Below are positions 5,664 to 24,539 of a stretch of 24,539 bases of DNA, one piece after another; within the stretch, counting starts at the first letter, position 1; the number at the start of each line of letters is the position of its first letter. The translations under genes and the position numbers were made by a program. A model generated the notes under the pieces. The model was not told where the DNA came from and did not search any database. It was given only the letters and a program-made list of their open reading frames with translations. The stretch comes from a virus, in IMG/VR virus record IMGVR_UViG_3300009136_000242, positions 1-24,539 of that record, one strand, 5' to 3'.

Positions 5664-5668
5664 CACAG

Positions 5669-6326: not shown

Positions 6327-6335
6327 GGAGATGAC

Positions 6336-6764
6336 ATGGCAGACAGAGGGAGAGGTGGGCTTCAACAGCCCAAGCGACCAGCTCCGGTCAGCAACCCACA
6401 GTCGGGCGCACGTACCGATGGAGGAGCTGGAAGCAAGGGCCAACCGCTTCGTGTCCCTACTGGCGGGAAGTACGGTGAAGCCAAAGGTCTCACCGAGCAG
6501 CAGCAAGCTGCGCCCCTCGCAGCTGGCGGTCCCGGCGTTCCCGCTCAGGGCGGACCTCCTGCTGGAGCGCCTGTTCCGCAAGCCGGGGGAGCCTTCGGGC
6601 CAACCCAGCGACCCAACGAGCCAAACAACGTAGGCGGCGGTGAGGCATATCCAGATGCCACCACCCAGAACCCGCAGGCTGCGCTTCGTGTCCTGTACTC
6701 GAAGTTCCCGCACCCTGCCATATCCAACCTGATTGACTGGACTTCAGGCAGTGAGCAGAGATGA
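6336..6764 (+). CDS. Disordered Gly/Pro/Gln-rich protein with short C-terminal conserved-looking segment
   Basis: AGGGAG (6325-6330) stands 5 nt before the ATG at 6336, which begins 9 nt after the previous stop. Its TGA overlaps the next ATG (ATGA). About the first 108 of 142 residues are low-complexity and rich in Gly, Pro, Gln and Ala, with basic residues near the start, and should be disordered. The last 30 residues form a more ordered piece (ALRVLYSKFPHPAISNLIDW). Such architecture suits a flexible linker or a scaffold- or portal-associated peptide whose C-terminus docks to a partner. It lies directly before the giant ejection-type protein and may be its chaperone or anchor, which is speculation. 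No family recognised. Confidence 0.65.
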   Translation: MADRGRGGLQQPKRPAPVSNPQSGARTDGGAGSKGQPLRVPTGGKYGEAKGLTEQQQAAPLAAGGPGVPAQGGPPAGAPVPQAGGAFGPTQRPNEPNNVGGGEAYPDATTQNPQAALRVLYSKFPHPAISNLIDWTSGSEQR

Positions 6765-9700: not shown

Positions 9701-12700
9701 CGCAATCTGGTTCCCGGTGCCAAGCAGCAAGCCTTCGACCTCATGGGCGACTATTCGAGTATGTTCTTCTCAAGTCTCGTCGGTGACGGTGTGGACCCTC
9801 GCCTTGCTGAGCGGTCGGCTGTCTGGTGGCGTGACTCTGGTGGCAAGTCTGTCTTCGACTCTGAGCGCCTTGGCCGTATCGACCTCTCTGCTGGCCCCGG
9901 CGACAAGACCCTCATCAACGATGTGCAGATAGGTGGCATGGGACCACAGGTCACAGCCGACATGTGGGGTGGTGCCCTCCAGCCCGTATCTCCTCGTGAC
10001 ATGAAGCGCATCTCGAACGAATCAGACACGCTCGGCAAAATCAGCAACAGGATTGCCTTGAAGAAATACGTCGATGACGCTGGGGGTATGGAGTTCCACG
10101 AACGTGCCTCCATCCGTGCGCTCGACTACACCATCCAGAAGGTGTGGAAGCCTCTCGTCCTCCTGCGTGGAGCATGGACGCTCCGCATCCTGATGGATGA
10201 CCAGATGAGGATGGCTGCAGAAGGCTACTCAGCCCTCAACCACCCAGCTCGCATATTCAACTATGCCCTCTCGAACCCCAAGGACTGGCGTGACGCCTTC
10301 CTGAAGGGGAACATCGACGTACACGGTGTGAAGATGTCCGTGGACAACGTGGACGAGATGAAGCACGCAGAGCTGTTCGTTGATGCCCTCATGAAGAAGC
10401 GTGGTGCCAACTCGGGCGTGGGTGGATACGGCAATCAGGTACACACCATTGCAGGCAAAGGCACACCGGGATACATCGACGGAATGGTATTCGAGCTGAC
10501 TCACCTCAACGGAAGCCCAATGACACAGAGGCTTGCGAACTCGAAGTCTGACGACCCCGTGGATGAGGTTGTGCGTTGGCTCCAAGGTGCTGGCGGTGAC
10601 GAAGGCAACACGGCAGCACGCTCTGAGCTGATGAATCAGGCTGGACTTGTGGAAGGCATGGGAGGCGACGAGGCAGCGGACATGGCTTCACGGGTTCTAG
10701 CCGGTGAACGGGAAGCCCTTGAGATGGTTGTGAACAGGCAGTACGGACTCCTCCACCACAAGACGGGTGGCCTCGTCTACATGGATACCGGCAAGGGCGA
10801 GTACCTCGACTACGGCAATCTCAAGCTCGTGGCGAACGAGACTCCCAACCCGACAGGCGAAGCACGCTGGGTCGTCATCAAGGAAGGCGACGAAGACCTC
10901 CTAGAGGTTGTGCGTGGCGGCAGGGAGAGGGACATCGGTGGCCTCAACACAGAGGAGTCCATCAAGAAGCTCAAGGAGCTGGTCACCCCGAAGGTCAGAG
11001 CCTCCGAATACTTCCCGCCTACGATACGTGTACCGAAGACTCAGGCCGAGATGGGCAAGACCGAAGGGCTGTCAGCGGAACTCGACAAGGCCATATCGGG
11101 TATGTTCGACTGGCTGATGACGAAGCCATCGAACTACTTCTCCCGTGTGCCAGAGTTCCAACGGGCGTACTGGCAGAAGGTGGCTGACCTCTACCCCTAC
11201 ATGGACGATGCACTGAAGAAGCAGATTGACGAGGTAGCCAGAGGTGCCCGAGCAAACGACTTGCTCAAGCAGGCACGCAAGGACAAGCGTGGAGCTTCCA
11301 TCCAAGGACAGCTCACCGACCTCGACCAAGTGGATGCACACGCCAAGGCGTATGGACTCACGAACGTCGAGCGCACGCTGTTCAACCTCACTGAGGACAA
11401 GACCAACATTGCTGACTCGCTCAGGCTCGTCTTCCCATTCGTGGAAGCATGGGGTGAGTTCATCACACGCTGGTCGAGGCTGATGCTGACGGGCGACAAG
11501 AACGTCAAGAACCTCAACCGCCTCCGTCAGACCGTACAGGGCGCCCGACGCTCAGGCTTCTTCCAAGAGAACGACTTCGGCCAGGAGGTGTTCAACTACC
11601 CCGCCTTCATGACGAAGGGGCAGGTTGGACTCCACAACAAGCTCAATGACATCCCCGGCCTTGGTGGGTTCATGGGCGACGACGTATCCCAAGAGGTGGC
11701 AGGAGCAATCGAGGCAACCGGCAACGTCGAGTCCCTCAACTTCGCATCGACCATCATCCCCGGCTTCGGTCCTGTCTTCCAGATGGCAGCGAAGGCGCTT
11801 CCCGAGAACCCTGACTACGACTGGATACGAGACATCGTTGCGCCGTTCGGCACTGAGGGGCGCATCGGCACTGACATGATGCCAGCGTGGTTCAAGAGAG
11901 TCGTGACCGCCCAAGGTGGTGGTGACGACCCCCAGCTCCAGTACGCCTACAACTCTGCAGTCATCGACGTGATACGCACCAAGATTGACAGCGGAGACTT
12001 TGCGGGTGTCAGGGACCAGACAGAGGTGAACGAACTCATCCGTGAAGCCGAAGCTGAGGCACGTGGATTGGTCATGGTCCGAGCTGCAGCCACGTTCTGG
12101 AATCCTGCATCACCGACCTACAAGTTCCAGAAGGAAGATGTGGACGGTCTCATCTGGTCGTACAACAACCTCGGTGGTGCCTACTACGACATGCTGGAGG
12201 AGGCCGGTCGTGACGAAGCCCTTGCGGGCGACATGTTCTACGAGCGATTCGGGCTTCTCCCCCACGCCTTCTCGGGTGGCAAGACGTACAGCACTGTGGA
12301 CCGAAGCAGGTACGTCGAGGGCAACAAGTTCGAGCGGTCAGTCCCGGCCCTGTTCGAGGAGTACCCCGCAACCGCAATGTATCTCGACCCGAACATCGGC
12401 GCCACCCCTGAGTACGACCATGGGGCAACCATCAACCAGCTCCAGAATGGCGAGCGTGAGTCCTACTCGGGCGAGCAGTTCGTCTACCTCCAGCAAGACC
12501 AGCTTGGTGACCTCTGGTGGGACAACATCAACAAGTCGGCAGCACTCATCGAACATACCCCAACGAAGAAGGCGTACCTCGCTGGGTTCAAGGTTCAGGT
12601 GCAGGAGGCATACCCGTTCTGGAATAAGCCAGTGCCGGGGAAGGTGCCCACCACCTCGAACGATGTGCAGATGGCAGAGGTGGAGAGCTGGGTCAACAAC

Positions 12701-13039
12701 AGTCAGCTCGCCCACCTCGACGTTGTGCAGGCTTCCCAGCTGTACCTCATGGAACGTGCCGATGTCTTGGAGCGCATCAAGAGGGCAGGGGCATCGACCA
12801 TCAGTGGGGCAAGCTCACCGAACAGCGATGCCGGTCAGGTCTCTACGATTCTCCGTGGCTACCTGCGTGACATGGGCGCCCAGCTGACCTCGGAGTACCC
12901 TGAGTTCGGACCCCTGTTCGACAACGTGTTCTCATACGAAGTGTCAATAACCCACGATGAACCACAGGCTCCAGAGGAATTGGTTGCTATGTTTGGTGCC
13001 GACGATGGATTTCAGAACTTAGGAGTAGCCGATGGCTGA
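6761..13039 (+). CDS. Giant (2092-aa) putative internal virion / DNA-ejection protein
   Basis: The largest gene of the window, starting in an ATGA overlap. It has no convincing transmembrane helices and no repeats, coiled coils or tape-measure periodicity. Visible features: a charged N-terminus; a Trp-rich amphipathic stretch at 97-155; a segment near 290-330 (VFLDPIDWVGGAWAKAG); a Pro/Gly-rich central part (about 370-930) that looks like a string of small inserted domains; a helical part after 1100; and a C-terminal part opening with FPFVEAWGEFITRWSRLM near 1558. Similar FPF-x-AW segments occur, from memory, in very large uncharacterised structural proteins of marine and freshwater phages. 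Its size and the lysozyme in the same operon suggest a role like T7 gp16: carried in the capsid and ejected to form a conduit. A tail or neck protein is the main alternative. No catalytic motif was recognised. Confidence 0.75.
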   Translation: MSRYSYFTDPSQEFFLDQERKKRESSQRQFEQLATDPYLLSNLAQFATNYPTSSAELGLAVARGGIPASDPSVQKMVTDELSTREVLGPISESGGGWWNSLANTWDEAVDNTVKGASRWGFGLWDATYQMIAGGAPIRANQLAQQEGISFFDAWKQQDPYIFEALGSVIAGQETNLGSGWMPNSDVAEDVQMNVNAGMEQVERDTAHLDANEKYTQRLEASPGIWRDSVSNSLEQQQMGDPLTQMNYADTESVMFDIDSFSGNKVRTPWSLGRVAAANFVEPGTSPFGKISGVGDFGAQVFLDPIDWVGGAWAKAGISGRKIWATGRAASVTPETAIARNLVSEPAGLPAPPKTLALGTGEPSPLARALTGDEMGPPTVQYTTRRVVGVDDEGFNIIDDVVEEFPAALPGRPAYQVAEEGKKIPWWLSPVESAKRTLSAIDPPDWFIDMHQRTRQGAAGGGGVKRSMAGLYKVDLPRLPGGRAQELRITRRGKGKNAYWDVTRPDGTKVREAVDDPRFTQTQGTEQFGTLAEAKRIAGEEVARYGDEDLRVHGMTADEFIDSGEDFVVDEYQSLARSSNPTGPDSESVLHGARKRVPEDATNGRNANVRVFGKSVDLSDGKVPDTVPKQLRDALDADGRLDIDNVVGFGDPYLERWDSTMAWMEANGVGKLNLPDGKVLVHDRFVGGNSRDQLGRMWFTDQNGPIHTMSQGDELLTGPTPAEINKVVDDIDELAQSRVPEGVGGPGVVTDTGGIQGEGFGIPGMPEPHPGVVGAQDDVASALRQADIENAAEVTVDSVRPDFDPGYQLHGKKADAFIDRLAAASAAYKGGKDGSLLDNLLRFLSRQNTPVPTKVRQAILDADNKEDIRRIFSEWLVKEGGQEVLLPGGLQYGRMAAGITPTNRPVGVAAKIPTGFRRRFATSISGRERNMLDDPDGAYALFDSALPHYNVKRGGQVQKYDADGKILEGQFIDVEELFQRLRNLVPGAKQQAFDLMGDYSSMFFSSLVGDGVDPRLAERSAVWWRDSGGKSVFDSERLGRIDLSAGPGDKTLINDVQIGGMGPQVTADMWGGALQPVSPRDMKRISNESDTLGKISNRIALKKYVDDAGGMEFHERASIRALDYTIQKVWKPLVLLRGAWTLRILMDDQMRMAAEGYSALNHPARIFNYALSNPKDWRDAFLKGNIDVHGVKMSVDNVDEMKHAELFVDALMKKRGANSGVGGYGNQVHTIAGKGTPGYIDGMVFELTHLNGSPMTQRLANSKSDDPVDEVVRWLQGAGGDEGNTAARSELMNQAGLVEGMGGDEAADMASRVLAGEREALEMVVNRQYGLLHHKTGGLVYMDTGKGEYLDYGNLKLVANETPNPTGEARWVVIKEGDEDLLEVVRGGRERDIGGLNTEESIKKLKELVTPKVRASEYFPPTIRVPKTQAEMGKTEGLSAELDKAISGMFDWLMTKPSNYFSRVPEFQRAYWQKVADLYPYMDDALKKQIDEVARGARANDLLKQARKDKRGASIQGQLTDLDQVDAHAKAYGLTNVERTLFNLTEDKTNIADSLRLVFPFVEAWGEFITRWSRLMLTGDKNVKNLNRLRQTVQGARRSGFFQENDFGQEVFNYPAFMTKGQVGLHNKLNDIPGLGGFMGDDVSQEVAGAIEATGNVESLNFASTIIPGFGPVFQMAAKALPENPDYDWIRDIVAPFGTEGRIGTDMMPAWFKRVVTAQGGGDDPQLQYAYNSAVIDVIRTKIDSGDFAGVRDQTEVNELIREAEAEARGLVMVRAAATFWNPASPTYKFQKEDVDGLIWSYNNLGGAYYDMLEEAGRDEALAGDMFYERFGLLPHAFSGGKTYSTVDRSRYVEGNKFERSVPALFEEYPATAMYLDPNIGATPEYDHGATINQLQNGERESYSGEQFVYLQQDQLGDLWWDNINKSAALIEHTPTKKAYLAGFKVQVQEAYPFWNKPVPGKVPTTSNDVQMAEVESWVNNSQLAHLDVVQASQLYLMERADVLERIKRAGASTISGASSPNSDAGQVSTILRGYLRDMGAQLTSEYPEFGPLFDNVFSYEVSITHDEPQAPEELVAMFGADDGFQNLGVADG

Positions 13040-15029
13040 TGCTGGAGAGACCAGAGAATCCGACCTAGGCAACGTCGCCTACGATGACACGAGGACGATG
13101 TTGCTCGTCACCCTCATGGCCGATGGCGACATCACCAAGGACGAGGCTCTCGACGTTCTCAGGTGGACCCGTGACGACACCGACCCCAAGCGCATCATCG
13201 GCGTGATTGCGGGCGAGCTTGGCGTTGCGACAGGAGCCATCGAGAAGCGTCTGGAAGGCACCGACTGGGAGATGCAGGGCGAAGACATTGAGGCCACTGG
13301 TCGTGGGTTCAATGCGTGGAAGAACGACGTTGGTGAGACCTTCATCCAGACCGGGAACGTGATGGGTAACTTCCTTGCGTGGCCCGAGCGCAAGATGGCT
13401 GACTGGGCTGTCAACGCTGGACAGCTTGGCGGTGGAGTCTGGTCGGACTGGGACCAATTCGTTGGACGGAACCTCACGCCGAGCGCCGTCAAGGGAAAGC
13501 TCGATGAGTACAACGAAGGCAAGGAAGACCGCACCCGTGTCCGTGACCAGACCCGCCAAGAGATTGACCGCCTCCTTGAGGACGGCAAGATTGGCAAGGA
13601 CGAGGCGAAAGACCTCCGCAACCTCACGGGTGACTACGGCTCTGAGAACTACGAGGAGCTGGAGAAGCGGCTGAGGACTGTCTACGACAAGTACGAGAGT
13701 GAGGAGCAGGGCGAGAGTCGCATCCGTGAAGGCGTGCTTCGTGACCTCATCATGCGCCAAGATGCACCAGAAGCTGCTGCCGTCGAGGAAGAATCTGCAG
13801 CTGTAGCCGGTGCCACACAGGAATACCCAGAACAGTCATACGACCCACAAGGGAACCCCATCGTTGAAAGTCCTTCCGCAATTGAGGAAGGAGTTGGTGC
13901 AGCACCGACCGCACCAGAGAGTGACGTTGATGCCTACCTCCGTGCCAACGGCTACAACCCACAGGAAGTCGAGGGCGTTGACTACGGAGCAGACACACCA
14001 CGGTCAAGGTACTTCGCAGAGGACTTCGTGTACGACCCTTCGACCGGCAGCAACTTCTCCTCTGACCAATGGGCAGCAATCAAGCTGGACCCAAGGGCAC
14101 GTGCTGATTACATCGTCAACAAACAGGTCGAGCCTTCCGTCGAGCGCCTCTTGAACTCAGGGCGATTCAACGTACAGGAGCGCACCGACGCCGAGGGCAA
14201 GGGCACAGGCGAGTACTACGAGACCGTGAGCAGTGGCGGGCAGGGGCACATCCCCATCGAAGACCTTGCCATCCCATCGCCCGTGGTGACGAACCCGTGG
14301 GAGACCTCCAGCTACGACTACAAGGTTGGCTCTGGTCGTAGTGAGTGGATGGGCATGTCCAAGATGATGCAGAAGCGATACATCATCACCATGAAGCAGC
14401 AGGGTCTCATCTCTGAAGACCAGTACAACGACTGGACGCAGCCGATGATTGACCCCGGCAACTGGAGTGGTGGAGCACTCGACGTGAACATGAACTCCCA
14501 GTCGATGAACCTGACTGCCATGTCCATCTATGAGCGGGCAACGTCCCTCTCGTCACAGTTCCAGCGTGACCCTCTCACAGCACTTAGCGCAATGGGGCAG
14601 GAGGCTCGTCAGTATCGGGCATCAAGGGGCAGCGGAAGGTCGGCGCCGAAGTACTCCGTGCCTGCATCGCTGCGTGAGATTCCTGACTACAAGACGCTCG
14701 CCACCAGAACCAAGGGCGTGTTCTCGGCTGAGCTTGGCCGTGACATGGAGGACTGGGAGCTTGGCATCCTCGCTGACGAGCTGAAGGGCAAGTACGAGGA
14801 GGCGAACCGTGACCGCATCGCCATCCACAAGGAGGCTTGGAACGATGCCGTTGCCGGTGGCTCCACGGAGGTGGACTTCGGTGAAGTCGAGGAGCCGCTT
14901 GAAGGCTTGGAGTTCGACATCGGTGAGAAGTACGGCGCTGAGATTGACAGGTACGAGCGTGTCGAGGACAGGGCGAACAGCCGTCGTCAGCTCATCGACT
15001 CCATATCTGTTGGCGAAAGGATGATTTGA
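13032..15029 (+). CDS. Putative internal virion protein, 665 aa
   Basis: ATG at 13032 overlaps the end of the giant gene by 8 nt; AGGAG (13021-13025) lies 6 nt upstream. The protein is soluble and highly charged. Residues 1-85 form a small helical domain (MADGDITKDEALDVLRW). Residues 92-147 hold a Trp-rich amphipathic stretch resembling one in the giant protein. A Lys/Glu-rich helical region spans about 150-240 and may be coiled-coil. Residues about 240-300 are an acidic Ala/Pro/Glu-rich linker. The rest is mixed, with a helical C-terminal piece around GRDMEDWELGILADELKG. No enzyme motif is seen. Co-location with the giant protein and the lysozyme supports membership of the same ejection assembly. 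Function is inferred from context only. Confidence 0.7.
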   Translation: MADAGETRESDLGNVAYDDTRTMLLVTLMADGDITKDEALDVLRWTRDDTDPKRIIGVIAGELGVATGAIEKRLEGTDWEMQGEDIEATGRGFNAWKNDVGETFIQTGNVMGNFLAWPERKMADWAVNAGQLGGGVWSDWDQFVGRNLTPSAVKGKLDEYNEGKEDRTRVRDQTRQEIDRLLEDGKIGKDEAKDLRNLTGDYGSENYEELEKRLRTVYDKYESEEQGESRIREGVLRDLIMRQDAPEAAAVEEESAAVAGATQEYPEQSYDPQGNPIVESPSAIEEGVGAAPTAPESDVDAYLRANGYNPQEVEGVDYGADTPRSRYFAEDFVYDPSTGSNFSSDQWAAIKLDPRARADYIVNKQVEPSVERLLNSGRFNVQERTDAEGKGTGEYYETVSSGGQGHIPIEDLAIPSPVVTNPWETSSYDYKVGSGRSEWMGMSKMMQKRYIITMKQQGLISEDQYNDWTQPMIDPGNWSGGALDVNMNSQSMNLTAMSIYERATSLSSQFQRDPLTALSAMGQEARQYRASRGSGRSAPKYSVPASLREIPDYKTLATRTKGVFSAELGRDMEDWELGILADELKGKYEEANRDRIAIHKEAWNDAVAGGSTEVDFGEVEEPLEGLEFDIGEKYGAEIDRYERVEDRANSRRQLIDSISVGERMI

Positions 15030-15652
15030 TGGCCCAGAGTGAAATGGTGCAGGCCGTCATGGAGGGTCTCAAGCAGACCGAATCCGGTGGTGACTACAAC
15101 AAGCAGCAGCGCATCCGCACAGCTGATGGCGTGGACTACAAGGTCGGTGCCTACGGCATCCTCCTCTCGAAGTGGCCCGCCATGGCAGCAGCCGCTGGCT
15201 ATCCAGACGCACGGTGGCAGGACCGCACAGCTCAGGACGTGGTGGTGGGCAGGCGCATCGACTACGACTTCCAGAGGTTCGGTGCTGCGTACCCCGACAT
15301 GCAAGACGACCTCCCCATGATGGCTTCCATCTCATTCAAGTACGGGGCTGGCCTTGTGACTGAGATGGTGGACAACGGTATCACCACGCCAGACCAGATG
15401 GCGGGTGTCCGAGGGCTGGAGCCTGTCATCGAGTACGTTGGCGGGCTGTCCACGGGCGACCTTATCCAGCAGTCACCATCGCTCAAGAAGCAGAAGGACG
15501 AGAAGCCCAAGAACCTCACGAGAGCAGAAGACCGTATCCGACAGACCCTCGTAGCAATGCGAGACAGCGACAGAGAAAGGGGCGTGTCTGATGGCAGTGA
15601 CGAGGAAATCATCGAGAACGGAAATCAAGAATTACCAGCAACAGCTGAATGA
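15029..15652 (+). CDS. Virion-associated lysozyme-fold murein hydrolase (SLT/Rpf-like)
   Basis: The 207-residue product carries a lysozyme-superfamily signature. E18 in KQTESGGDY is the likely catalytic acid, followed by GAYGILLSKW (40-49), which matches the G-x-YGI/Q-x(n)-W pattern of soluble lytic transglycosylases and Rpf-type enzymes. A second helix pair follows (MMASISFKYGAGLV). The last 55 residues are charged and probably flexible. There is no signal peptide or holin-like partner. It sits among structural genes, so a role in local cell-wall opening at infection is likelier than lysis. The start at ATG 15029 overlaps the previous TGA (TGATG), with AAAGGA 7 nt upstream. An in-frame TTG at 15026 is less likely. 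Fold confidence is good; whether it is a transglycosylase or muramidase cannot be told. Confidence 0.82.
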   Translation: MAQSEMVQAVMEGLKQTESGGDYNKQQRIRTADGVDYKVGAYGILLSKWPAMAAAAGYPDARWQDRTAQDVVVGRRIDYDFQRFGAAYPDMQDDLPMMASISFKYGAGLVTEMVDNGITTPDQMAGVRGLEPVIEYVGGLSTGDLIQQSPSLKKQKDEKPKNLTRAEDRIRQTLVAMRDSDRERGVSDGSDEEIIENGNQELPATAE

Positions 15653-16919
15653 CGCTGGGGCCAAGCCAGCCCTTGTAATCGACGGCATCTGGGGACCGAA
15701 GACTCAGGCAGCTTCCGACAAGTGGGGCGACAGTACAGACGAGGGCACTCCCGATGCGGTAGAGGGCGACCCTCTCGAAGGCACTGGCCCCGAAGGTACG
15801 GAGCCACGCTTCGGCCTTGCCGGTGGAGCAGAGCTATGGAAGAACTCAGACACTGGCGATTCCTACATCGTGTACGTGGTTCCCGGCACCGAGGACGACC
15901 CCGTGTATATGCGCTGGCTCGTTCCCTCTGATGCTGATGTCCAATCGTTCTTCGGTCCCGGTCAGCCCGTCAAGTACCAGCAGACCTATGGAGGAAGCGA
16001 CAAGATTTGGGGAGACACCATCGACTTCGGTGGCTCTGACGATATTGCGAACACCTCCAAGAGTCCGTTCGATTCGTGGGCTTCCACCCTTGAGGCTGAG
16101 TCAGCATCGAAGCCTTGGATACTTGACGAGGACTATCAGAAGCTCCTCGCCATGTCCGTCATCGAGAACCGTGACCTCACCTCAGCCGAGCTGCAGACCA
16201 CGAAGTACTGGAAAGACCACGACGACTCCCAGCGTGAATGGATGCGAGTCCTTCATGGTGACCCCGCCACAGCCCAGCAAACGCTGGACGACAGAAGGCT
16301 CCAGACGAACCAGTGGATGCTCGACGCAGGTATCTCCAACCCTGATGAGGACTTGGTGAACTGGATGTCGGACAAGTACGCCAAGGGCGATTGGTCGAAG
16401 GTCGAGCTTGACCGACAGATACAGCTCCTCTCTGATGACTACTACTCAGATGTCCCCCTCAACGAAGACCTCCAGAAGTACATTGACGAGAACGAAGTCA
16501 CCGTTGATATGAACGAGGACATGGGCGCCGAGGTGCGTGGACTCGTGAAGCAATGGCTCGGTACGAACTTCGGGGAGTGGTCCGACGAACAGGTCAACAG
16601 CTGGGCAGGCAGGCTTCGCAACGAACCCGATGCTCGTGAAGCTCTCATGGAAACGCTGAAAGACCAGAAGACAGCCCTGTTCCCCGAGTACGACCGTGAA
16701 GCCGACTACCAGACCATTGCTTCCCCGTGGCGCACGCAGATGCGTAACCAGTGGGGCAAGGTGCCTGACGACTCTGATGCCATGCTCCACTCTGTCATCC
16801 GCATGAACGATGCGGGCGAGGCAGGCAAGCTCCTCACTCAGGAGGGGCTGAAGCGTGGCTATGACACGACGGTCAACTCCGTACAGTCAGCAATGTCCTA
16901 TGCGTTTGGAGGTAACTGA
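15591..16919 (+). CDS. Virion protein with N-terminal peptidoglycan-binding domain, 442 aa
   Basis: Residues 11-46 match a PG_binding_1-type three-helix module: EIKNYQQQLN, then the hallmark DGIWGPKTQAA (31-41). This would hold the protein to the cell wall. A beta-rich part (about 75-150), a helical region and a C-terminal domain containing FPEYDREADYQTIASPW and a LLTQEGLKRGYDT helix follow. That C-terminal style recurs, from memory, in uncharacterised phage structural proteins. ATG 15591 has AAAGGGG (15576-15582) 8 nt upstream. The gene overlaps the lysozyme gene by 62 nt in another frame. The pair looks like a hydrolase and its wall-targeting domain split over two adjacent genes. No catalytic residues are seen here. 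Confidence 0.78.
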   Translation: MAVTRKSSRTEIKNYQQQLNDAGAKPALVIDGIWGPKTQAASDKWGDSTDEGTPDAVEGDPLEGTGPEGTEPRFGLAGGAELWKNSDTGDSYIVYVVPGTEDDPVYMRWLVPSDADVQSFFGPGQPVKYQQTYGGSDKIWGDTIDFGGSDDIANTSKSPFDSWASTLEAESASKPWILDEDYQKLLAMSVIENRDLTSAELQTTKYWKDHDDSQREWMRVLHGDPATAQQTLDDRRLQTNQWMLDAGISNPDEDLVNWMSDKYAKGDWSKVELDRQIQLLSDDYYSDVPLNEDLQKYIDENEVTVDMNEDMGAEVRGLVKQWLGTNFGEWSDEQVNSWAGRLRNEPDAREALMETLKDQKTALFPEYDREADYQTIASPWRTQMRNQWGKVPDDSDAMLHSVIRMNDAGEAGKLLTQEGLKRGYDTTVNSVQSAMSYAFGGN

Positions 16920-17758
16920 TGGCTGAAATCATCAAAGAGCCGTGGATGACCGATGAGATGTTCAATGAGTGGGTCAACCTCTACGTCGATGCCGGTGGCT
17001 CCGGTGTGGCTGGCTCAGCTGGTCGTGCAACCGCCCTGTTCCGTGAGCTACCCGAGTACGAGAAGTGGTTCCCCGGCATCAAGCGGGAGGATGGCAACGT
17101 CCGGTACGACAACAACCCCGAGCTGACGTACTACAACAACATCAACGCCTTTCGCAACACCGTCGAGGGCTTCAAGATGACAGCCGATACCTTCAACGAG
17201 GACTACATCTCCCTCATCGAGGGGGACGTATCGCCTGCCGAGTTCGAGCAGCGCACCAACTCCCTCTACGACAGGGTGCTCAAAGGTGGCGCAGAAACTC
17301 GAGACTGGTACGCCCAGAACTTGGGTATCCCGATGACCGACGAGGGGATGCTTGCTTCCTTGATGTCCAACCGTGTCGAGACTGCACTGTTCAACCGTGA
17401 GATAACCCTTGCCGAGATAGGTGGGCAATCCTCGATGCAGGGCTTCGACCTCACCACCAGCTTCGTTGAGATGCTTGCTGATGAAGGTGGGATGGATAGG
17501 AAGGAAGCGAATCGAATGTTCGGCAGCGCAGCCTCACTCCTCCCTGCACTTGGCGCCCTTGCTCGCAGGCACGGCGACCCTGATGACACGTTCGACATCA
17601 CTGAGTTCGCTGAAGCCTCAGCCCTTGACGACCCAATCCAGCTGGCCCGCATGGGGAGGCTGCAATCAGCGGAGCAGAGTCAGTTCACGGGTGGTGCGGA
17701 AGTCGAGTTCGAGCGGAACCGAGCCACTGGTGGCGTGTCAGGTCTTGCACAAAGTTGA
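16919..17758 (+). CDS. Putative structural protein, 279 aa, last gene of the ejection cassette
   Basis: TGATG overlap with the previous gene and a strong GGAGG (16908-16912) 6 nt upstream. The protein is soluble, acidic and mostly helical. A central part contains LPEYEKWFPG, then a Tyr/Asn-rich helix, then DVSPAEFEQRTNSLYDRV. Proteins with a YPGxE-type motif followed by a DVSPxE-type helix are, from memory, common in actinophage and uncultured-phage structural operons, but their function is not known to me. The C-terminus is Gly/Ser-rich and basic. It ends just before the leader of the scaffold gene; the -35 of the proposed promoter lies within its final codons. Confidence 0.72.
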   Translation: MAEIIKEPWMTDEMFNEWVNLYVDAGGSGVAGSAGRATALFRELPEYEKWFPGIKREDGNVRYDNNPELTYYNNINAFRNTVEGFKMTADTFNEDYISLIEGDVSPAEFEQRTNSLYDRVLKGGAETRDWYAQNLGIPMTDEGMLASLMSNRVETALFNREITLAEIGGQSSMQGFDLTTSFVEMLADEGGMDRKEANRMFGSAASLLPALGALARRHGDPDDTFDITEFAEASALDDPIQLARMGRLQSAEQSQFTGGAEVEFERNRATGGVSGLAQS

Positions 17759-17774
17759 GTTCCATGCTTACAAT
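17745..17774 (+). promoter_or_regulatory. Sigma70-like promoter candidate before scaffold/capsid genes
   Basis: TTGCAC (17745-17750) and TACAAT (17769-17774) are separated by 18 nt. The -10 matches TATAAT in five of six positions; the -35 keeps TTG but is otherwise weak. Transcription would start near 17781, practically at the first base of the CTGATG hairpin of the leader. This coincidence, plus the 195-nt gap in an otherwise gapless operon, supports a dedicated promoter for scaffold and capsid. It overlaps the end of the 279-aa gene. Confidence 0.5.
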
Positions 17775-17819
17775 GACAGTCCTGATGGGTTATCGCCCTG
17801 TTTCATCAGCGTACTAGGG

Positions 17820-17866
17820 CAGGACATAGCGAGTGGTTCGAGTTGCGACTCCCACCTGTGTTTCTG
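17820..17866 (+). ncRNA. Bulged 18-bp RNA hairpin within the capsid leader
   Basis: Left strand blocks CAGG, ACATAG, GTGG and GAGT pair with an almost continuous right strand ACTC, CCAC, CTGTGT and TCTG. Two G-U pairs occur. Three-nucleotide bulges, CGA (17830-17832) and TTC (17837-17839), interrupt the left strand, and a single T (17862) the right. The loop is TGCG (17844-17847). Asymmetric bulges on one strand are typical of protein- or ligand-binding RNA stems. I tested a tRNA reading and rejected it. Confidence 0.4.
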
Positions 17867-17940
17867 TACCAAAGTCGCAGCCAGCTGATGAGAGTCCAGT
17901 AGCTCTCCTCAAGTACTGAAGTCCTACTGAGTGTTTATCA

Positions 17941-17948
17941 GAGGAGAG
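17941..17948 (+). promoter_or_regulatory. Ribosome binding site of scaffold gene, complementary to upstream CTCTCCTC
   Basis: GAGGAGAG is a strong SD with its AGGAG core 8 nt before the ATG at 17954. It is the exact 8-nt reverse complement of 17903-17910. The chance of a perfect 8-nt complement to a given site within a 190-nt leader is roughly 0.3 percent for random sequence, so sequestration deserves attention. Confidence 0.6.
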
Positions 17949-17953
17949 AGAAC

Positions 17954-18403
17954 ATGAGCGATACCGAAACCACAGAAGTCCAGACCGACCCCGACGAGCC
18001 AAAGGGACTGCGTAAGCAGCTCAACGTGGCGAACGAAAAGCTACGAGTAGCTAACGCACGGGAGATGTCACGGGCATTTGATGAAGTCGGCTTGAACACC
18101 GACTCAGGTCTAGGAAAGGCCATTGCCAAGGAATACGAAGGCGAAATCACCCCAGAGGCGATTGCTGCGTATGCCAAGGAAGAATACAAATGGGAAGGCA
18201 CCACGGTGTCCGAACATCCAGAGGCTCAGACCATCGCACAGGGACAGGCTGCACTTGACCAAGTTGGTGAAGCTGCAGGTTCTGTACCACTCGCTCCTAC
18301 TGAGGGACAGACACTCGCTGAGGCAGAGGCCAAAGGCGACTACCAGAAAACCCTTGCCATGAAAGGCGACCAAGTTGCCTCATGGTTCGGAAAAACCCCC
18401 TAG
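17954..18403 (+). CDS. Putative capsid scaffold protein
   Basis: A 149-residue acidic, soluble protein directly before the major capsid gene, which is the classical scaffold position. The first 18 residues are acidic and disordered. Residues about 19-47 form a charged amphipathic helix with heptad character (LRKQLNVANEKLRVANAREM), followed by a helix-rich part (GLGKAIAKEYEGEITPEAI). A long acidic Ala/Gln/Glu region follows, and the end is short and basic (ASWFGKTP), like the capsid-binding tail of scaffolds. The style resembles actinophage scaffolds. Scaffolds guide coat assembly and leave or are digested before packaging. It has its own strong SD and the structured leader described above. 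The assignment rests on position and composition. Confidence 0.72.
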   Translation: MSDTETTEVQTDPDEPKGLRKQLNVANEKLRVANAREMSRAFDEVGLNTDSGLGKAIAKEYEGEITPEAIAAYAKEEYKWEGTTVSEHPEAQTIAQGQAALDQVGEAAGSVPLAPTEGQTLAEAEAKGDYQKTLAMKGDQVASWFGKTP

Positions 18404-18418
18404 TACAGGAGTCACAAG

Positions 18419-19462
18419 GTGGCGGATTATACAATCCCAAGTACCCCGATTGAGGGTACCGGCGACGGCACAGATGCCAGCGCCACGACCTATGACCTTC
18501 CTAACTTCGTTGGTGAGCTATTCAGCCTCATCCCGGCGCAGACACCTTTCCTCTCGATGGCCGGTGGCCTGACGGGTGGACGGGGAGTCAGCTCCACGGA
18601 GTTCGGTTGGCAGGTCGAAGACAACAAGGCTGCAGCGGCGAACAACGCTCAGCTCGAAGGCCAGACGGTTGCGGCAGACCACATCCCCCGTCAGGAAGTC
18701 AAGAACGTGGTTGAGATTCATCAGGAATCTGTCAGCATCAGCTATTCCAAGCAGGGTGCAACGGGAATGGTCTCAAGGGCCGACCCAATCATGGCAGAGA
18801 ACTTCGAGCAGCTGGGCAGCCAGCCGGTCGGTTCTGAGGTTTCTCATCAGCTTGCGCTGAAGATTAACCAGATTGCTCGTGACGTTGAGCTGTCCTTCTT
18901 GAAGGGCGTGTATGCCAACCCAGCGGCCAACACTGGCACCGGAGTTCCCGGTGACGGAACGATGCGTCAGACCCGAGGCATCATCACTGCTGCGACAACG
19001 CATACAGCTGACACCATCGTTGGTGCGGCTGCGTTGAAGACGGCCATTGACAACTTGCTGATTGGCATGTTCGAGGATGAGACTGAGGTAGCTCCTCTCA
19101 TCCAGCCGGTCATCTTCGTCAACGGTACGGTGAAGGTGCTTCTCTCACAGGCGTACTCCAACAGCGGTGGTCTTGCTGACCGTTCCCGCACGGTTGGAGG
19201 CGTGAACGTCGAGACATTGGTCACGGACTTTGGCACCTTCGGTGTCGTCCTCGACCGTTACATCCCGGCGACGGAGTTCCTACTTGCTGACATGAGCGTT
19301 GTGAAGCCTTGCTTCATGGCAATCCCCGGCAAGGGACACTTCTTCACGGAGCCTCTGGCGAAGACGGGTGCCTATGACAGGGCACAGTTGTACGGAGAGA
19401 TTGGTCTGGAGTACGGCCCCGAGCAGTACCACGGCACGCTCACCGGCATCACAGCCGCCTAG
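18419..19462 (+). CDS. Major capsid protein, SU10/DUF5309-like
   Basis: A 347-residue protein with a GTG start; AGGAG (18407-18411) lies 7 nt upstream, 15 nt after the scaffold stop. It follows the pattern of the SU10-type major capsid family (formerly DUF5309): an early TPFLS (42-46); an EFGWQ strand (61-65); an EG pair (80-81); a strand with VVEIHQESVSISYS; a long helix with a conserved-looking ELSFLKG; a TRGII segment; and a C-terminal part with EIGLEYGPEQYHGTLTGI. The fold is HK97-like and would form the capsid shell. Context (scaffold before, fibre after) agrees. I see no protease gene in the window. Family assignment is by recognition of the pattern. Confidence 0.87.
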   Translation: MADYTIPSTPIEGTGDGTDASATTYDLPNFVGELFSLIPAQTPFLSMAGGLTGGRGVSSTEFGWQVEDNKAAAANNAQLEGQTVAADHIPRQEVKNVVEIHQESVSISYSKQGATGMVSRADPIMAENFEQLGSQPVGSEVSHQLALKINQIARDVELSFLKGVYANPAANTGTGVPGDGTMRQTRGIITAATTHTADTIVGAAALKTAIDNLLIGMFEDETEVAPLIQPVIFVNGTVKVLLSQAYSNSGGLADRSRTVGGVNVETLVTDFGTFGVVLDRYIPATEFLLADMSVVKPCFMAIPGKGHFFTEPLAKTGAYDRAQLYGEIGLEYGPEQYHGTLTGITAA

Positions 19463-19478
19463 CGGATAACATCAGCAG

Positions 19479-19512
19479 AGAGGGAGGGACGACCCAGAGC
19501 GTCCCTTCCTCT
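19479..19512 (+). terminator. Strong hairpin between capsid and tail-fibre genes (terminator or processing site)
   Basis: AGAGGGAGGGACG (19479-19491) pairs with CGTCCCTTCCTCT (19500-19512) over 13 bp with one G-U, around an 8-nt loop. It starts 16 nt after the capsid stop. No T-tract follows, so it is not a textbook Rho-independent terminator; it could be a tail-less terminator, an mRNA-stability or processing hairpin for the abundant capsid message, or a block to read-through into the fibre gene. Confidence 0.6.
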
Positions 19513-19517
19513 AAGCT
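19512..19517 (+). promoter_or_regulatory. TANNNT -10-like motif placed for a leaderless fibre transcript
   Basis: TAAGCT matches the TANNNT -10 form common in actinobacteria and ends 6 nt before the fibre ATG at 19524, so a start at +7 would be the A of ATG. No SD exists before this ATG, and an in-frame TAA at 19512-19514 rules out an earlier start in this frame. No -35 was recognised. A six-base TANNNT occurs by chance about once in 64 positions, so this is tentative. Confidence 0.3.
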
Positions 19518-19523
19518 GTCCAC

Positions 19524-22500
19524 ATGACAAGGCTCCACCACCCCGTAACGATTCCCGGCCTGCTGCTGGAGCTTCCGCAGCCGGGGACTGTTCTCGTCCT
19601 CACTTCTGGCGGGAATGTTGAGCTTGCCGGTTACGGTGGCGGTCCCGGCGACCCTGCCGACCCACCCCATCGTCCGGTAACCATTGAAGACCTCATGTAC
19701 AAGGAGCCGTGGCCGACCGGCCCAACGTCCGGTGGTGCCATCACGATTACCGGCTTGCAGGAAATCACCATTGCTGCGGGTGCGGGTGTCATCGTCAACT
19801 CTTGGGCTGACCCCTACAACATCGTTGTCGATGAGCTTGCTTGGGTTGAACAAGCACTCACCATCTCAGCCCTCCCGCTACGGGCTTACTCGTATGTCTA
19901 CATCAACCCGAGCGGTGTCCTTCTCTACCTGACGGACCAGCCGCAACCTGACCTGTTGCGTAAGAACATCTACATGGCACGCATCGTGCATGACATCTCG
20001 ACTGGCGAAATCATCGGCATCCGACCGGCGCACATGATTCCCGGTGGCACGTCACAGATGTTCGCTGACTTCATGCTCGCTGTTGGCATCCCTGTTCTCG
20101 TCCAAGGCGCTGATGTGGTCGGGAACGCTGACCTCACGTTCGATACGTCTGCGTCAAAGTGGTTCGGTCCCGGCGAGTCGTGGCAGCAGGACAAGGACGA
20201 CCCGAACATTGCCAACAACCCCGGTGGTGCTCCGCAACAGTTCTACTACATGCGGTCAGACGGTGTGCTTGAGCCTGCACCCATCCGTACCGATGTGTTG
20301 CCTGCAAGGTGGGAGTCTCCGCTTGGCACCGTCGATGATGTCTCTGCCCCACAGAACACGACAACCATCCAACGGTTGTGGACTTCCATTTCCGGTACGT
20401 TCGTGATGACGTATGGGCAGACTGAGTACGGCACCCTTGAGGAAGCACGCAACGCTCTCACTGAGGACAACGCCCTCTACGTCAAGCCCCAGTACCTCTC
20501 CGACGAACGTGCCACCCTCGTCGCCTACTTCCTCATGGAGCGGTCAGCGACTGACCTTCTGAACGGCATCGACGTACTCATCATCTCTCCCGAAGGCACG
20601 CCCGTCAGTGGCGGGGCATCCGGTCCCCACACCCACGATGTGACGTACCTGCGCCTCGATGCCTCGAATGACCCGATGCAAGCAGAGCTGTCAATGGGCA
20701 ACTTCGGCATCAAGGACATGCTCGACCCTGTGCTTGCCCAAGACGCAGCGACGAAGCTGTACGTGGATACCCAAGACCCTCACGACCTGTACTCGGGGCG
20801 ACACACCGACGTAGACGTAGTGACGGTGCTGGATTCCCGGCATATCCTCGCTGTTCCTGCGGGGTTAGGTGATTGGGAGCCTGAGCTGCGGTTGAACTGG
20901 CGCAACACTTGGATTCAGGGCACCTACTACACCCATGACACGGTGCGTGACGGCGACTACCTGATGGCTGCCAACAAGGAAACCACTGACCGTCCATCGC
21001 CTGTTGCTATCGGTGCCCCCTCGTTCCTGCTGCCTGATGCCCCGACATGGAACGTGTTGCAGTACACAGGCTCGGTGTTCTCCGGTATGCACATCGACGT
21101 ACCTGTGGGTGAGCTGTTCGAGGTTCAGGCTGTCCGTATCTGGATACAGAACATCTCAGCCGACGCCCACTATCAGGTCGTCATCTATGACGCAGTGACC
21201 GGCCTGTTCAGCATCGGGGACTCATTCGATGGTGACATTCTCCAAGCCCCCGGTTGGCTCACTGTCCAGTTCACACCGTTCTTCATCAGCTCCACTGATG
21301 ACTTCTTCATCATTGTCCACAACTCGAACTCGGCAGGCACAACCGACTTCAACCATCCGTGGGTCAGGACAGGAGACTCGAACCTTGATGCAGACCCCGG
21401 CGCTGGTAACTGGAATCAAGACAACAACTCCACCCGTCTGCGTATGTCCACCACTGACGACGATGCAGTGGGTCGTGTTGCCGAACTCGGGTCCGTGGTG
21501 CCGGGAACGCTCATCCAGCTCCAAGACGAAGCGAACCTCAGCGCCTACACACAGTACGAAGTCATTGCCATCACCGACAATGGGACATGGTTCCTGTTCG
21601 ATGTGATTCTGGTCGATACAGGTACCCAAGGGACAGCCACCATCGGGTTGAGGCAGCAAGCGTACTTCGAGGTTCCGATTGCAGCCGCCACCGATTACGT
21701 CACCCTCACCGACCACTTCTTGGCGAACCCTGACATTGACGGTTACCTCTCGTTCGACTCGCTTGTCGGTGGACTCGACACCGACGACGGGTACGGCATC
21801 GACATGCAGCTCCAAGAGTTTTCAGCGTCACCCGATTGGGACTTGATGGCTCAGACGGGCGGAGGTGGCGGTGGAGGTGAGGAAGGTGGCGGTGCGAACC
21901 CGTTGCCTCCCGGTGGCTCCGCTGACCAAGCACTCACCAAGGTCAATGCAGATGATTTCAACGTCCAATGGTCAGGGCCGTACATGCTGCCTGCCGACGA
22001 ATCGTTCCTCCACGACGACCTCGTTGATGTCAGCACCTCGCAGCACCATGTCAGGTACAGCGACAGTGAAGCGATTGCAGCCGTAGGCCCGCACACCACC
22101 ACCCACGGTGCGCTCGTAGATGTCACAGCAGATGACCACCACACTCGCTACACGGACCAAGAAGCGATTGACGCTGGCGCCGGCACCTATCTGCCCCTCA
22201 TCGGTGGGACACTCACCGGCTTCCTGACCCTCCACGCTGACCCAACGCTTGCCCTCCATGCAGCGACGAAGGATTACGTTGACACGGAGATTGCAGCAGC
22301 CACCCCTGACCTCGCCCTTGATGACCTCTCTGACGTTGACGTAATCGGGGTACAAGACGGACAGATACTCGGCTACAACTCGGCAGGGTTGGTGTGGGAG
22401 CCAGTCGAGAACCGTGGCAACAAGGGCATCATCTCCCTCGGGTTCCTGTGGGATGCTGGACAGACTGCCTCGCCTGCTACGGGTGACATCTCATCGGACG

Positions 22501-24089
22501 CAGCAACACCGGCACTCACCACCGTCCTACATATCTCAGACACAGACGAGAACGGTGACTCCATCGGGTTCATCCTCGACAACATCACAGCCGACGACCT
22601 CCTTGTGTTGGCTGAGCGTGCAGATGACACCAACCGACAGGACTACACCGTGGTGTCCTCTGTGGACATGGGCACCTACCACGACATCGCTGTCACGTAC
22701 ACCAGCGACGGCGGGCTGATTCCTGACAACGCACCCATCTTCATGTATCTGTTCCAGACGCTCCCTGACCTCGACGGGGTGTACCTCCGGTTGGATGCAA
22801 CGAACGACCCACTGACAGGGAGCCTCACCCTGTCAGGCGACCCGACAGGTCCGCTTGAGGCTGCAACGAAGCAGTATGTCGATGCCCTCGAAACGCTCCC
22901 TGCTGGTGGCGATGTGGGCGACCACATCTCCAAGATTGACCTCGCTGAAGGCAACGCTGATTGGGAGAAGCATGTCACCTTCCAAGAGATAGCGCCGGGA
23001 GTACCACGCCCCGGCGACCTCTGGTTTGACACCACTCCCGGTGGCTCCATCCCTGACCTTGACGACATCTACCTGCGCCTTGACGGTGCGAACCCGATGC
23101 TTGGACCGCTCGCTATGGGTGGCTTCCTCATCTCTGGTGTGTCTGACCCTGTAAATCCGCAAGATGCAGCGACGATGGCATACGCCGACCTCATGCTCCC
23201 CCTTGCGGGTGGGGCGCTAGATACCAACGCCGAAGTAGTCATCGGTGACTCGGGCATGAAGGTGACTGACAGGCTCAGTTCTCGTGTCTCATTTAGGACT
23301 GTCGCTGATGTCGTTGCGTTCGAGATAAGTGATTCTCAGGTGTTCTTCCCTGATGGCACCGAAGCCTCCCCCGGCTTGGCCCTTGCAACAGCGAATACCA
23401 CAGGCATATATCGTGTCTCGTCAACTGCGCTGGGCTTCTCGGCTGGTGGCAATCTCGTAATGACTGTCGGTTCAACATCCGTGTCCTTCGACCAAGAAGT
23501 TATCAGTACGGTAAAAACCCGAACTCCGATTGTTGCCGATGTCAACGGAAACACACGGCTGTTGATTAACACCAATGGTGTTCAGACATCGGGGTGGGGC
23601 TTCGGACTAGGTGTCAGCGGTTCAATATCATCACCAGCTGTCTACTTCGTTGGCGACGAGGACACAGGCCTGATCCTTCGTGGAACAAACTCCATGGCGC
23701 TGGTGTGCGGTGGTGTGGATGTGTTCTGGGTGGGAGGGAGTGGAACCTTTATCAGAGTTGCTCCGTCTACCGGATCGGCAGCCAACACTTACTTGGATGG
23801 GTCCAACCAGATCCAGAAGTCAACTTCTGCCCGCAAATACAAGAGTCAAATCACCTACGACGTAGCCGAACTGCTCGACATCGAACTGAAGCCAGCCAAG
23901 TTCTATCGTGAGGACGATGAGCGTTGGTTCTACGGACAGATAGCCGATGACCTCGAAGTTGAGGACGAGATATTCGCTCAGTACGGTGAGGACGGCGAGC
24001 TTGAGAACTACGATTCCGATGAGGTGTTGGCTGTGGTGATTGCACAACTCAACGATGCACGAGCACGACTGGAGGCAGCAGGACTATGA
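19524..24089 (+). CDS. Tail fibre/spike with C-terminal S74 intramolecular chaperone
   Basis: A 1521-residue receptor-binding fibre. The N-terminal 330 residues probably attach it to the particle. Residues about 495-640 look like a beta-sandwich. A Gly-rich linker lies at 779-790. Two HHxRY repeats follow (833-851, 864-882). Four trimerisation-type units of the form YLxL-DP-ATK-YVD start at residues 375, 889, 1087 and 1183; the fourth is divergent (ATMAYAD). A DDLSDVDV...LVWEP module lies at 933-960. The C-terminus (about 1433-1521) is a Peptidase_S74-type domain: STSARKYK with candidate cleavage Ser (S1433 or S1435) and Lys (K1438 or K1440), then ELKPAKFYRED and a final helix. S74 domains drive trimer folding and usually cut themselves off. 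The only plausible start is ATG 19524; it has no SD. The fibre call is firm; host receptor unknown. Confidence 0.9.
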   Translation: MTRLHHPVTIPGLLLELPQPGTVLVLTSGGNVELAGYGGGPGDPADPPHRPVTIEDLMYKEPWPTGPTSGGAITITGLQEITIAAGAGVIVNSWADPYNIVVDELAWVEQALTISALPLRAYSYVYINPSGVLLYLTDQPQPDLLRKNIYMARIVHDISTGEIIGIRPAHMIPGGTSQMFADFMLAVGIPVLVQGADVVGNADLTFDTSASKWFGPGESWQQDKDDPNIANNPGGAPQQFYYMRSDGVLEPAPIRTDVLPARWESPLGTVDDVSAPQNTTTIQRLWTSISGTFVMTYGQTEYGTLEEARNALTEDNALYVKPQYLSDERATLVAYFLMERSATDLLNGIDVLIISPEGTPVSGGASGPHTHDVTYLRLDASNDPMQAELSMGNFGIKDMLDPVLAQDAATKLYVDTQDPHDLYSGRHTDVDVVTVLDSRHILAVPAGLGDWEPELRLNWRNTWIQGTYYTHDTVRDGDYLMAANKETTDRPSPVAIGAPSFLLPDAPTWNVLQYTGSVFSGMHIDVPVGELFEVQAVRIWIQNISADAHYQVVIYDAVTGLFSIGDSFDGDILQAPGWLTVQFTPFFISSTDDFFIIVHNSNSAGTTDFNHPWVRTGDSNLDADPGAGNWNQDNNSTRLRMSTTDDDAVGRVAELGSVVPGTLIQLQDEANLSAYTQYEVIAITDNGTWFLFDVILVDTGTQGTATIGLRQQAYFEVPIAAATDYVTLTDHFLANPDIDGYLSFDSLVGGLDTDDGYGIDMQLQEFSASPDWDLMAQTGGGGGGGEEGGGANPLPPGGSADQALTKVNADDFNVQWSGPYMLPADESFLHDDLVDVSTSQHHVRYSDSEAIAAVGPHTTTHGALVDVTADDHHTRYTDQEAIDAGAGTYLPLIGGTLTGFLTLHADPTLALHAATKDYVDTEIAAATPDLALDDLSDVDVIGVQDGQILGYNSAGLVWEPVENRGNKGIISLGFLWDAGQTASPATGDISSDAATPALTTVLHISDTDENGDSIGFILDNITADDLLVLAERADDTNRQDYTVVSSVDMGTYHDIAVTYTSDGGLIPDNAPIFMYLFQTLPDLDGVYLRLDATNDPLTGSLTLSGDPTGPLEAATKQYVDALETLPAGGDVGDHISKIDLAEGNADWEKHVTFQEIAPGVPRPGDLWFDTTPGGSIPDLDDIYLRLDGANPMLGPLAMGGFLISGVSDPVNPQDAATMAYADLMLPLAGGALDTNAEVVIGDSGMKVTDRLSSRVSFRTVADVVAFEISDSQVFFPDGTEASPGLALATANTTGIYRVSSTALGFSAGGNLVMTVGSTSVSFDQEVISTVKTRTPIVADVNGNTRLLINTNGVQTSGWGFGLGVSGSISSPAVYFVGDEDTGLILRGTNSMALVCGGVDVFWVGGSGTFIRVAPSTGSAANTYLDGSNQIQKSTSARKYKSQITYDVAELLDIELKPAKFYREDDERWFYGQIADDLEVEDEIFAQYGEDGELENYDSDEVLAVVIAQLNDARARLEAAGL
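20646..23195 (+). repeat. Four dispersed YLRLD...ATKxYVD fibre repeat units
   Basis: Units start at 20646, 22188, 22782 and 23070, each about 34-42 codons. They begin Y-L-R/P-L, contain a DP, and three end in A-T-K-x-Y-V-D; the fourth ends in a divergent ATMAYAD. The third and fourth units are also preceded by the same PDLD segment. A fifth copy lies at 24152-24247 in the next gene. Such units are common in phage fibres as short trimeric coil or beta segments. Shared DNA stretches between copies could promote exchange of fibre parts. Confidence 0.75.
22020..22169 (+). repeat. Tandem HHxRY-type repeat in the fibre
   Basis: Residues 833-851 and 864-882 share the pattern L-V-D-V-x3-x-H-H-x-R-Y-S/T-D-x-E-A-I, with a spacing of 31 residues. 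Similar His-rich H-x-RYTDxEA units occur in many tail fibres. Paired histidines in an intertwined trimer could bind a metal ion along the axis, as known for the HxH motifs of the T4 long-fibre tip; for this motif it is inference. Confidence 0.6.
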
Positions 24090-24539
24090 GCCTCAAGACT
24101 TGGGACGGCACGCAGTGGGTAGACACAGCCACAGCTCACATCCACGACACCTACTTGCAGCTCATCGGTGGCTCAATGACGGGCGACATCACCCTCGTTG
24201 GTGACCCAACCCAGCCGTTGCACCCTGCCACGAAGCAGTACGTCGATGCGATACAGGACGGGCTACATACCATCGACACGATTGCCCCTGCGAACCCGAA
24301 CGAGGGTGATGTATGGGTGAACCCTGACGCAGTAGACGAGAACGCCTACCTCCCCCTCAATGGCACAGTGTCAATGCTCGGCCCGATTGTGTTCGCACCG
24401 GGAGACAACACTGATGGATTCCTCCAAGGGCAAGACACTGCGGGTCGGCAAGTCCTCACCCTCTCATCTGGCCTTGTTGGTGGCAATCTCCAAGCACGCA
24501 TCCAGCTATATGGCCCAAGCGATACGTCTGCTCCCAATG
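24086..24539 (+). CDS. Second tail-fibre protein (partial, runs off the window)
   Basis: The ATG at 24086 overlaps the fibre stop (ATGA); GGAGG (24071-24075) lies 10 nt upstream. The frame stays open for 151 codons to the end of the window. It begins MSLKTWDGTQWVDTATAH, typical of a short adaptor or fibre N-terminus. A YLQLIGGSMTGDITLVGDP...ATKQYVD unit follows (codons 23-54), almost the same as units in the large fibre, then a GDVWVNPD segment and another YLPLNGTVSMLGP start. It is probably a companion fibre or the next segment of a branched receptor-binding apparatus, perhaps arisen by duplication. The C-terminus and any enzymatic or chaperone domain are not visible. Confidence 0.8.
   Translation, partial: MSLKTWDGTQWVDTATAHIHDTYLQLIGGSMTGDITLVGDPTQPLHPATKQYVDAIQDGLHTIDTIAPANPNEGDVWVNPDAVDENAYLPLNGTVSMLGPIVFAPGDNTDGFLQGQDTAGRQVLTLSSGLVGGNLQARIQLYGPSDTSAPN

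Follow-up and report, generated by a model that had tools for sequence, protein, structure and literature searches.

The window analysed here is the whole 24,539-nucleotide stretch of virus DNA deposited as IMG/VR record IMGVR_UViG_3300009136_000242. It encodes a terminase large subunit (positions 147–2384) and contains a weak match to a portal protein (2713–4488). An open reading frame of 2092 aa at 6761–13039 had no Pfam match and a marginal PHROG match only (phrog_10618). Further downstream lies a gene for a major capsid protein (MCP) of the SU10_MCP family, directly preceded by a gene for a 149-aa protein (Table 1). The latter is referred to as the probable capsid scaffold gene; the label is positional, because the gene immediately precedes that for the capsid protein, whereas its product belongs to PHROG 7813, the function class of which is 'unknown function'. 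Homologues of this product directly precede the SU10-type MCP within this group of phages as well. The gene on the other side of the leader, at 16919–17758, encodes a PHROG 8424 protein (unknown function), for which no tblastn match was found in 50,697 phage records.

A σ70-like promoter is predicted close to the end of the PHROG 8424 gene. It is the sole plus-strand match to the sigma70-like consensus across positions 5600–24539, and its −10-like box (17769–17774) is followed after 7 nt by the first helix, P1, of the element described below. From this position we infer a transcript start at about 17781–17782, which would make P1 the 5′ end of the mRNA. Searches for terminator-like sites on the plus strand between 17781 and 17954 returned none. 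Since nothing in the leader terminates transcription, the element would act in cis on the scaffold-capsid operon.

Table 1. Coordinates of the features in the leader of the scaffold-capsid operon and of the two genes that follow it.
Feature	Position in the window	Strand	Details
σ70-like promoter (predicted)	17745–17774	+	−35 near 17745–17751 (TTGCAC / TGCACA); −10 TACAAT 17769–17774
P1	17782–17809	+	CTGATG 17782–17787 × CATCAG 17804–17809
K1 (pseudoknot 1)	17795–17820	+	GCCCT 17795–17799, in the P1 loop, × AGGGC 17816–17820
P2-P3-P4 hairpin	17824–17861	+	P2 17824–17829 × 17856–17861; P3 17833–17836 × 17852–17855; P4 17840–17843 × 17848–17851
K2 (pseudoknot 2)	17844–17879	+	TGCGACT 17844–17850 (P4 apical loop and part of the P4 3′ strand) × AGTCGCA 17873–17879
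P5 hairpin	17890–17907	+	GAGAG 17890–17894 × CTCTC 17903–17907
Shine-Dalgarno (SD) sequence	17941–17948	+	GAGGAGAG; RBS of the probable scaffold gene (ATG 17954); outside the conserved structure
Probable capsid scaffold gene	17954–18403	+	149 aa; role inferred from position ahead of the major capsid gene
Major capsid protein, SU10_MCP family	18419–19462	+	PF17236, E=3e-68; PHROG 1328, major head protein

The element occupies positions 17782–17879 and consists of two consecutive pseudoknots: P1 with K1, followed by the P2-P3-P4 hairpin with K2. Its strongest features, the complementary pairs TGCGACT/AGTCGCA (K2) and GCCCT/AGGGC (K1), were absent from the pairings listed in the first-pass annotation of this DNA. 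Plain minimum-free-energy folding does not reveal the conserved fold either; P1 is missed (probability of 0.0 in ensemble folding) because it belongs to a pseudoknot, and the leader folded without constraints is only mildly more stable than shuffled sequences (z=−1.48). A tRNA or tmRNA reading, prompted by the string GGTTCGAGT at 17835, was rejected; ARAGORN detected neither, and this common string falls in the P3-P4 region.

Homologues were sought in IMG/VR with three queries, namely the capsid protein, the probable scaffold protein and the product of the gene upstream of the leader. The same element was found in eight other uncultured phage contigs, in the same place ahead of the probable scaffold gene. 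In loci L001, L008, L009, L010, L167, L169, L341, L343 and, with a deletion of ∼35 bases, L170, the leader follows the upstream gene and precedes that for the scaffold. The clear members number only nine, all of them from metagenomes. Scaffold proteins of four homologues are 41–52% identical to that of the window, and capsid proteins of five homologues are 57–65% identical. A gene of the PHROG 8424 family adjoins the leader in the members where it was readable. The order of the parts in the homologues is −10-like box, P1, K1, P2-P3-P4, K2, usually P5, SD and start codon. In most of them the −10-like box is positioned 6–9 nt ahead of P1 (the spacing is larger in L167); K1 joins the P1 loop to a strand just 3′ of P1, with extra sequence intervening in L009, L010 and L167, and the 3′ strand of K2 lies 19–28 nt downstream of its partner in the P4 loop. 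Compared to L169 (2275–2387), L170 (2310–2387) lacks ∼35 bases, corresponding to the 3′ strand of P1, the downstream strand of K1 and the 5′ strand of P2, and retains P4 and K2; the gap is either a true deletion or a fault of metagenome assembly.

Compensatory changes were found in P1, P2, P4, K1 and K2. In the covariance-model alignment of nine sequences, 91.4% of the cells of the nested helices are paired and both sides change in 13 of the 18 pairs; P1 displays both-side changes in 8/8 columns with 90% of its cells paired, and P3 and P4 are paired in 100%. On four of five measures, none of 500 shuffles scored as high as the nested helices, the covariation score of which is 0.647 in register compared to 0.069–0.194 when slid. 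RNAalifold by itself predicted P1, part of P3, and P4. Hand placement of the helices in seven sequences, which for K1, K2 and P2 was done with pairing in view and therefore yields optimistic counts, resulted in paired cells of 50/50 for P1, 42/42 for P2, 23/23 for P4, 48/48 for K2, 32/35 for K1 and 24/28 for P3. In this alignment K1, P3 and P4, which vary little and for that reason fare weakly in such a comparison, are singly not clearly significant against letter shuffles.

Some rows are misaligned at K1 and K2 when MAFFT is used by itself; the strands of the two pseudoknot helices were therefore placed by hand for counting, with slid registers as controls. Against slid registers, a control that together with leave-one-out limits the bias of the hand alignment and does not remove it, K1 has 41/45 cells paired compared to at most 23/45, and K2 has 61/63 compared to at most 31/63, with 20 double-change cells. 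The versions of K1 include GCCC:GGGC, GTCC:GGAC and GTTCC:GGAAC. Compared to shuffled downstream sequence, the K2 match gave a combined p of 3.5e-7 over eight leaders, L001 contributing only 4 Watson-Crick bp (7 bp with one G-U). The use of G-U pairs in P1, P2, K1 and K2 favours selection acting on the plus-strand RNA over selection on DNA. Several unpaired bases are also conserved (CG before the first strand of K1, AG after its second strand, and GGT between P3 and P4), suggesting a specific tertiary fold or a binder. A hairpin corresponding in position to P5 is present in L008, L009, L010, L167 and L169, with 29/30 cells paired in the hand alignment.

A model (R2) built from six sequences excluding the window, with the structure chosen by RNAalifold, found positions 17769–17879 of the window at E=2.3e-11. 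It also found L343 (4.5e-10) and L341 (4.1e-8), both of which were unseen by R2 and had first been found with model R1. Among 62 loci, a seven-member model recovered its own members and L170. Each contig gave a single confident copy, invariably in the place upstream of the scaffold gene. At most other SU10-MCP loci the gap ahead of the gene that comes before the MCP is short, and no convincing element was detected by the model in 93 of them. When the scaffold protein by itself was used as the query, no confirmed relative was obtained, and a DNA pattern derived from the P2-P3 strand was discarded as a finder, having returned three known members and three unrelated matches. Judged from these comparisons, the conserved tandem-pseudoknot fold is almost certainly real, its fixed place between the promoter-like site and the scaffold gene is established at the level of sequence, and the element is probably regulatory.

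A group of AT-rich phages (L171/L350, L351, L353–L357 and L359) has a divergent leader at the same place. Here P1 occurs as two unlike sequences, AGTACC/GGTACT or TAGGG/CCCTA, K1 is GCAG/CTGC or GCGA/TCGC, and K2 is CAAGG/CCTTG. Members of the group gave no score with models R1 or R2, and taken singly their K2 matches are weak (p 0.05–0.14); on reading the sequences, these leaders are a probable divergent version of the element. In L342 and L346, 8-bp matches of the K2-like kind were seen between a loop and downstream sequence.

The first-pass annotation had proposed a different device, namely a two-state switch in which a local hairpin and a long-range helix exclude each other and thereby expose or hide the scaffold ribosome-binding site (RBS). 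All complementarities on which it was built are letter-exact: CTGATG (17782–17787), TTTCATCAGC (17801–17810), GCTGATGAGA (17884–17893), GAGAG (17890–17894), CTCTCCTC (17903–17910) and GAGGAGAG (17941–17948). Its local CTGATG/CATCAG hairpin is the conserved P1, as seen from covariation in nine sequences, and its GAGAG/CTCTC pairing is P5, which is conserved in position and has an ensemble probability of ∼0.8–0.9. The claim that the promoter-like site is followed by a structured RNA leader, and this in turn by the probable scaffold gene, also holds across the homologues. The long-range helix (17801–17810 × 17884–17893), on the other hand, is not conserved, had no counterpart when the other leaders were read, and has an ensemble probability of 0.00–0.07; it would moreover need to break the conserved P1. 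The helix proposed to mask the RBS (17903–17910 × 17941–17948) exists as an exact 8-bp match in the window but is not conserved, and its probability is 0.01–0.07. The probabilities of P5 and of these two helices were computed in three ways, with the upstream part unconstrained, forced into the conserved fold or omitted.

The 8-bp match to the RBS had been singled out as notable. It has p=0.05 against dinucleotide shuffles of the whole leader and p=0.13 against shuffles of the tail only. In eight homologous leaders, the best match that the SD region finds elsewhere in its leader is not elevated over shuffles, with a combined p of 0.21 (Watson-Crick) or 0.48 (G-U allowed). In L009, L010, L167 and L169 the promoter-like position and the RBS are both retained but the tail has no CTCC-type anti-SD, the best Watson-Crick match to the SD there being 4–5 bp; leaders of this kind had been named in the first-pass annotation itself as evidence against its switch. 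When the tails were folded, SD accessibility followed no pattern (mean unpaired 0.37–0.87). Of the four helices of the switch, only P1 and P5 are kept, and the compensated helices exclude the RBS. In spite of the exact SD complement and the interlocking complementarities in the window, the RBS-masking switch is already largely refuted and is scarcely tenable. At 17920–17945 of the window, a local hairpin (UCCU...AGGA) is predicted to take in the 5′ half of the SD; folding of the homologous tails revealed no evident shared equivalent.

Other leaders, found in front of scaffold homologues in further uncultured phages, are built differently. Type C leaders (e.g. L175, L191, L196, L206 and L207) share with the window a promoter-like site, a structured leader and a scaffold-like gene, but they precede a different capsid protein, are devoid of the tandem pseudoknot and contain one short hairpin, the constant CCTCC loop of which faces the SD AAGGAG. 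This hairpin is located ∼20–70 nt before the start of the scaffold homologue, and its stem varies by compensation while the loop keeps CCTCC. On sequence grounds, type C leaders are a better candidate for RBS masking than the window. A third type of leader (L172, L174, L188, L198, L202 and L204) has, ∼100–250 nt before the start of the scaffold homologue, a hairpin with a GGCT loop able to pair with a downstream AGCC.

The autogenous operators of gene 32 in T4, T2 and RB69 likewise consist of a pseudoknot in the 5′ leader of a DNA-phage mRNA, upstream of the RBS and not overlapping it. The spacing is also alike: the T4 pseudoknot lies ∼67 nt upstream of the start codon, and the 3′ end of the element described here, formed by K2, lies 60–90 nt upstream of that of the scaffold gene. 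However, in the gene 32 leader only one pseudoknot is present, and the A+U-rich tract after it is devoid of structure and is coated by the single-strand-binding protein, whereas the present leaders have two pseudoknots, predicted hairpins in the tail (in the window and in homologues) and a probable capsid scaffold gene, with no match in sequence or in Rfam. According to a 2010 review of T4 control, the gene 32 pseudoknot is possibly the sole viral pseudoknot involved in translational autoregulation.

We tentatively favour, as a real possibility, the reading that the element is a 5′-terminal cis-acting receptor with a protein binder on the scaffold-capsid mRNA, which does not work through masking of the RBS. 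In the late mRNA for scaffold and capsid protein, the double pseudoknot would begin approximately where transcription does and would form a compact folded receptor at the 5′ end of the message. A factor acting in trans, most likely a phage protein from the capsid operon, would bind the knot, as happens at the T4 gene 32 operator, and binding would alter translation or the lifetime of the mRNA; that the binder might be the scaffold or the coat protein is a guess based on gene order. When unbound, the knotted 5′ end may shield the mRNA against 5′-dependent decay. No anti-RBS helix would be swapped in the course of this action.

Protection could also be the whole function, in which case a knot on the first nucleotides would block 5′-dependent decay of an abundant capsid message in the absence of any regulator. 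We regard this as unlikely, even though P1 follows the −10-like box so closely that the 5′ end would be buried, and no T4 mRNA is more stable than that of gene 32, the 5′ leader of which contains a pseudoknot. The stability of the gene 32 mRNA is partly attributed to translation, and the conserved unpaired bases and the second, internal pseudoknot exceed the needs of a simple 5′ block. The second pseudoknot would be superfluous in a simple stabiliser, which is also a counterpoint to the combined receptor-plus-protector reading.

The putL and putR sites of phage HK022 offer another comparison. They are cis-acting nascent RNAs near a phage promoter (putL directly after PL), composed of consecutive structured units with no link to an RBS, as would be the element described here if its presumed cis action is correct. 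They differ in being two stem-loops without pseudoknots, on the early operons of lambdoid phages, whereas K1 and K2 are supported by compensation. In a Put-like scheme of processive antitermination, the nascent double pseudoknot would bind the elongating RNA polymerase, which would then ignore pauses and terminators in the long late operon. The location of the element directly after the promoter-like site, its length of ∼100 nt, its two consecutive structured units and the missing RBS link all agree with such a scheme, to which we nevertheless assign a low probability. Put elements are simple stem-loops; no strong plus-strand terminator was found downstream of the element in the window, where terminator-like sites do not exceed their number in shuffled sequence; and the element is present in one copy per contig, compared to two in HK022.

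The lack of a terminator bears on two further readings. The element might be a small RNA acting in trans (e.g. of the packaging type) that is cut by chance from the leader, as a complex structured RNA with its own promoter-like site, present once per contig and adjoining capsid genes, could suggest. This is very improbable, given that no terminator follows the element, which runs directly into the scaffold RBS, and that neither phi29 pRNA nor any other Rfam family was matched. A small-molecule riboswitch governing scaffold and coat synthesis would account for a 5′ leader with a fold that is compact, pseudoknotted and reminiscent of an aptamer, but is quite improbable too: the leader has no conserved expression platform (no plus-strand terminator at 17781–17954 and no conserved SD pairing), the genes downstream are structural rather than metabolic, and no Rfam riboswitch was matched even at E=10.

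Rfam release 15 gave no match at the gathering threshold over the window and none at E values up to 10 for positions 17740–17970. A description of the element was not found in the open-access literature on structured phage RNA, capsid leaders and pseudoknots. BLAST searches of 50,697 phage records with the leaders of the window and of L010, and tblastn searches of these records with a scaffold homologue, produced no match, so the family is known from metagenomic virus contigs alone. The element is an uncatalogued RNA family, although its general kind, structured phage mRNA leaders, is already known.

Conserved structured RNAs that control the capsid genes of dsDNA phages are barely known. In the phages described here, the RNA domain has been kept although 35–45% of positions differ between the capsid proteins and roughly half between the scaffold proteins. 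It is somewhat unlikely, in our estimate, that the double pseudoknot either adjusts scaffold-capsid synthesis during assembly by sensing the free scaffold or coat protein, or instead reprograms RNA polymerase; if true, either would amount to a new class of phage regulatory RNA, of which we found no description for phage capsid operons. The fold provides a concrete, mutable object with which questions about the timing and ratio of scaffold and coat may be approached in an uncultured group of phages.
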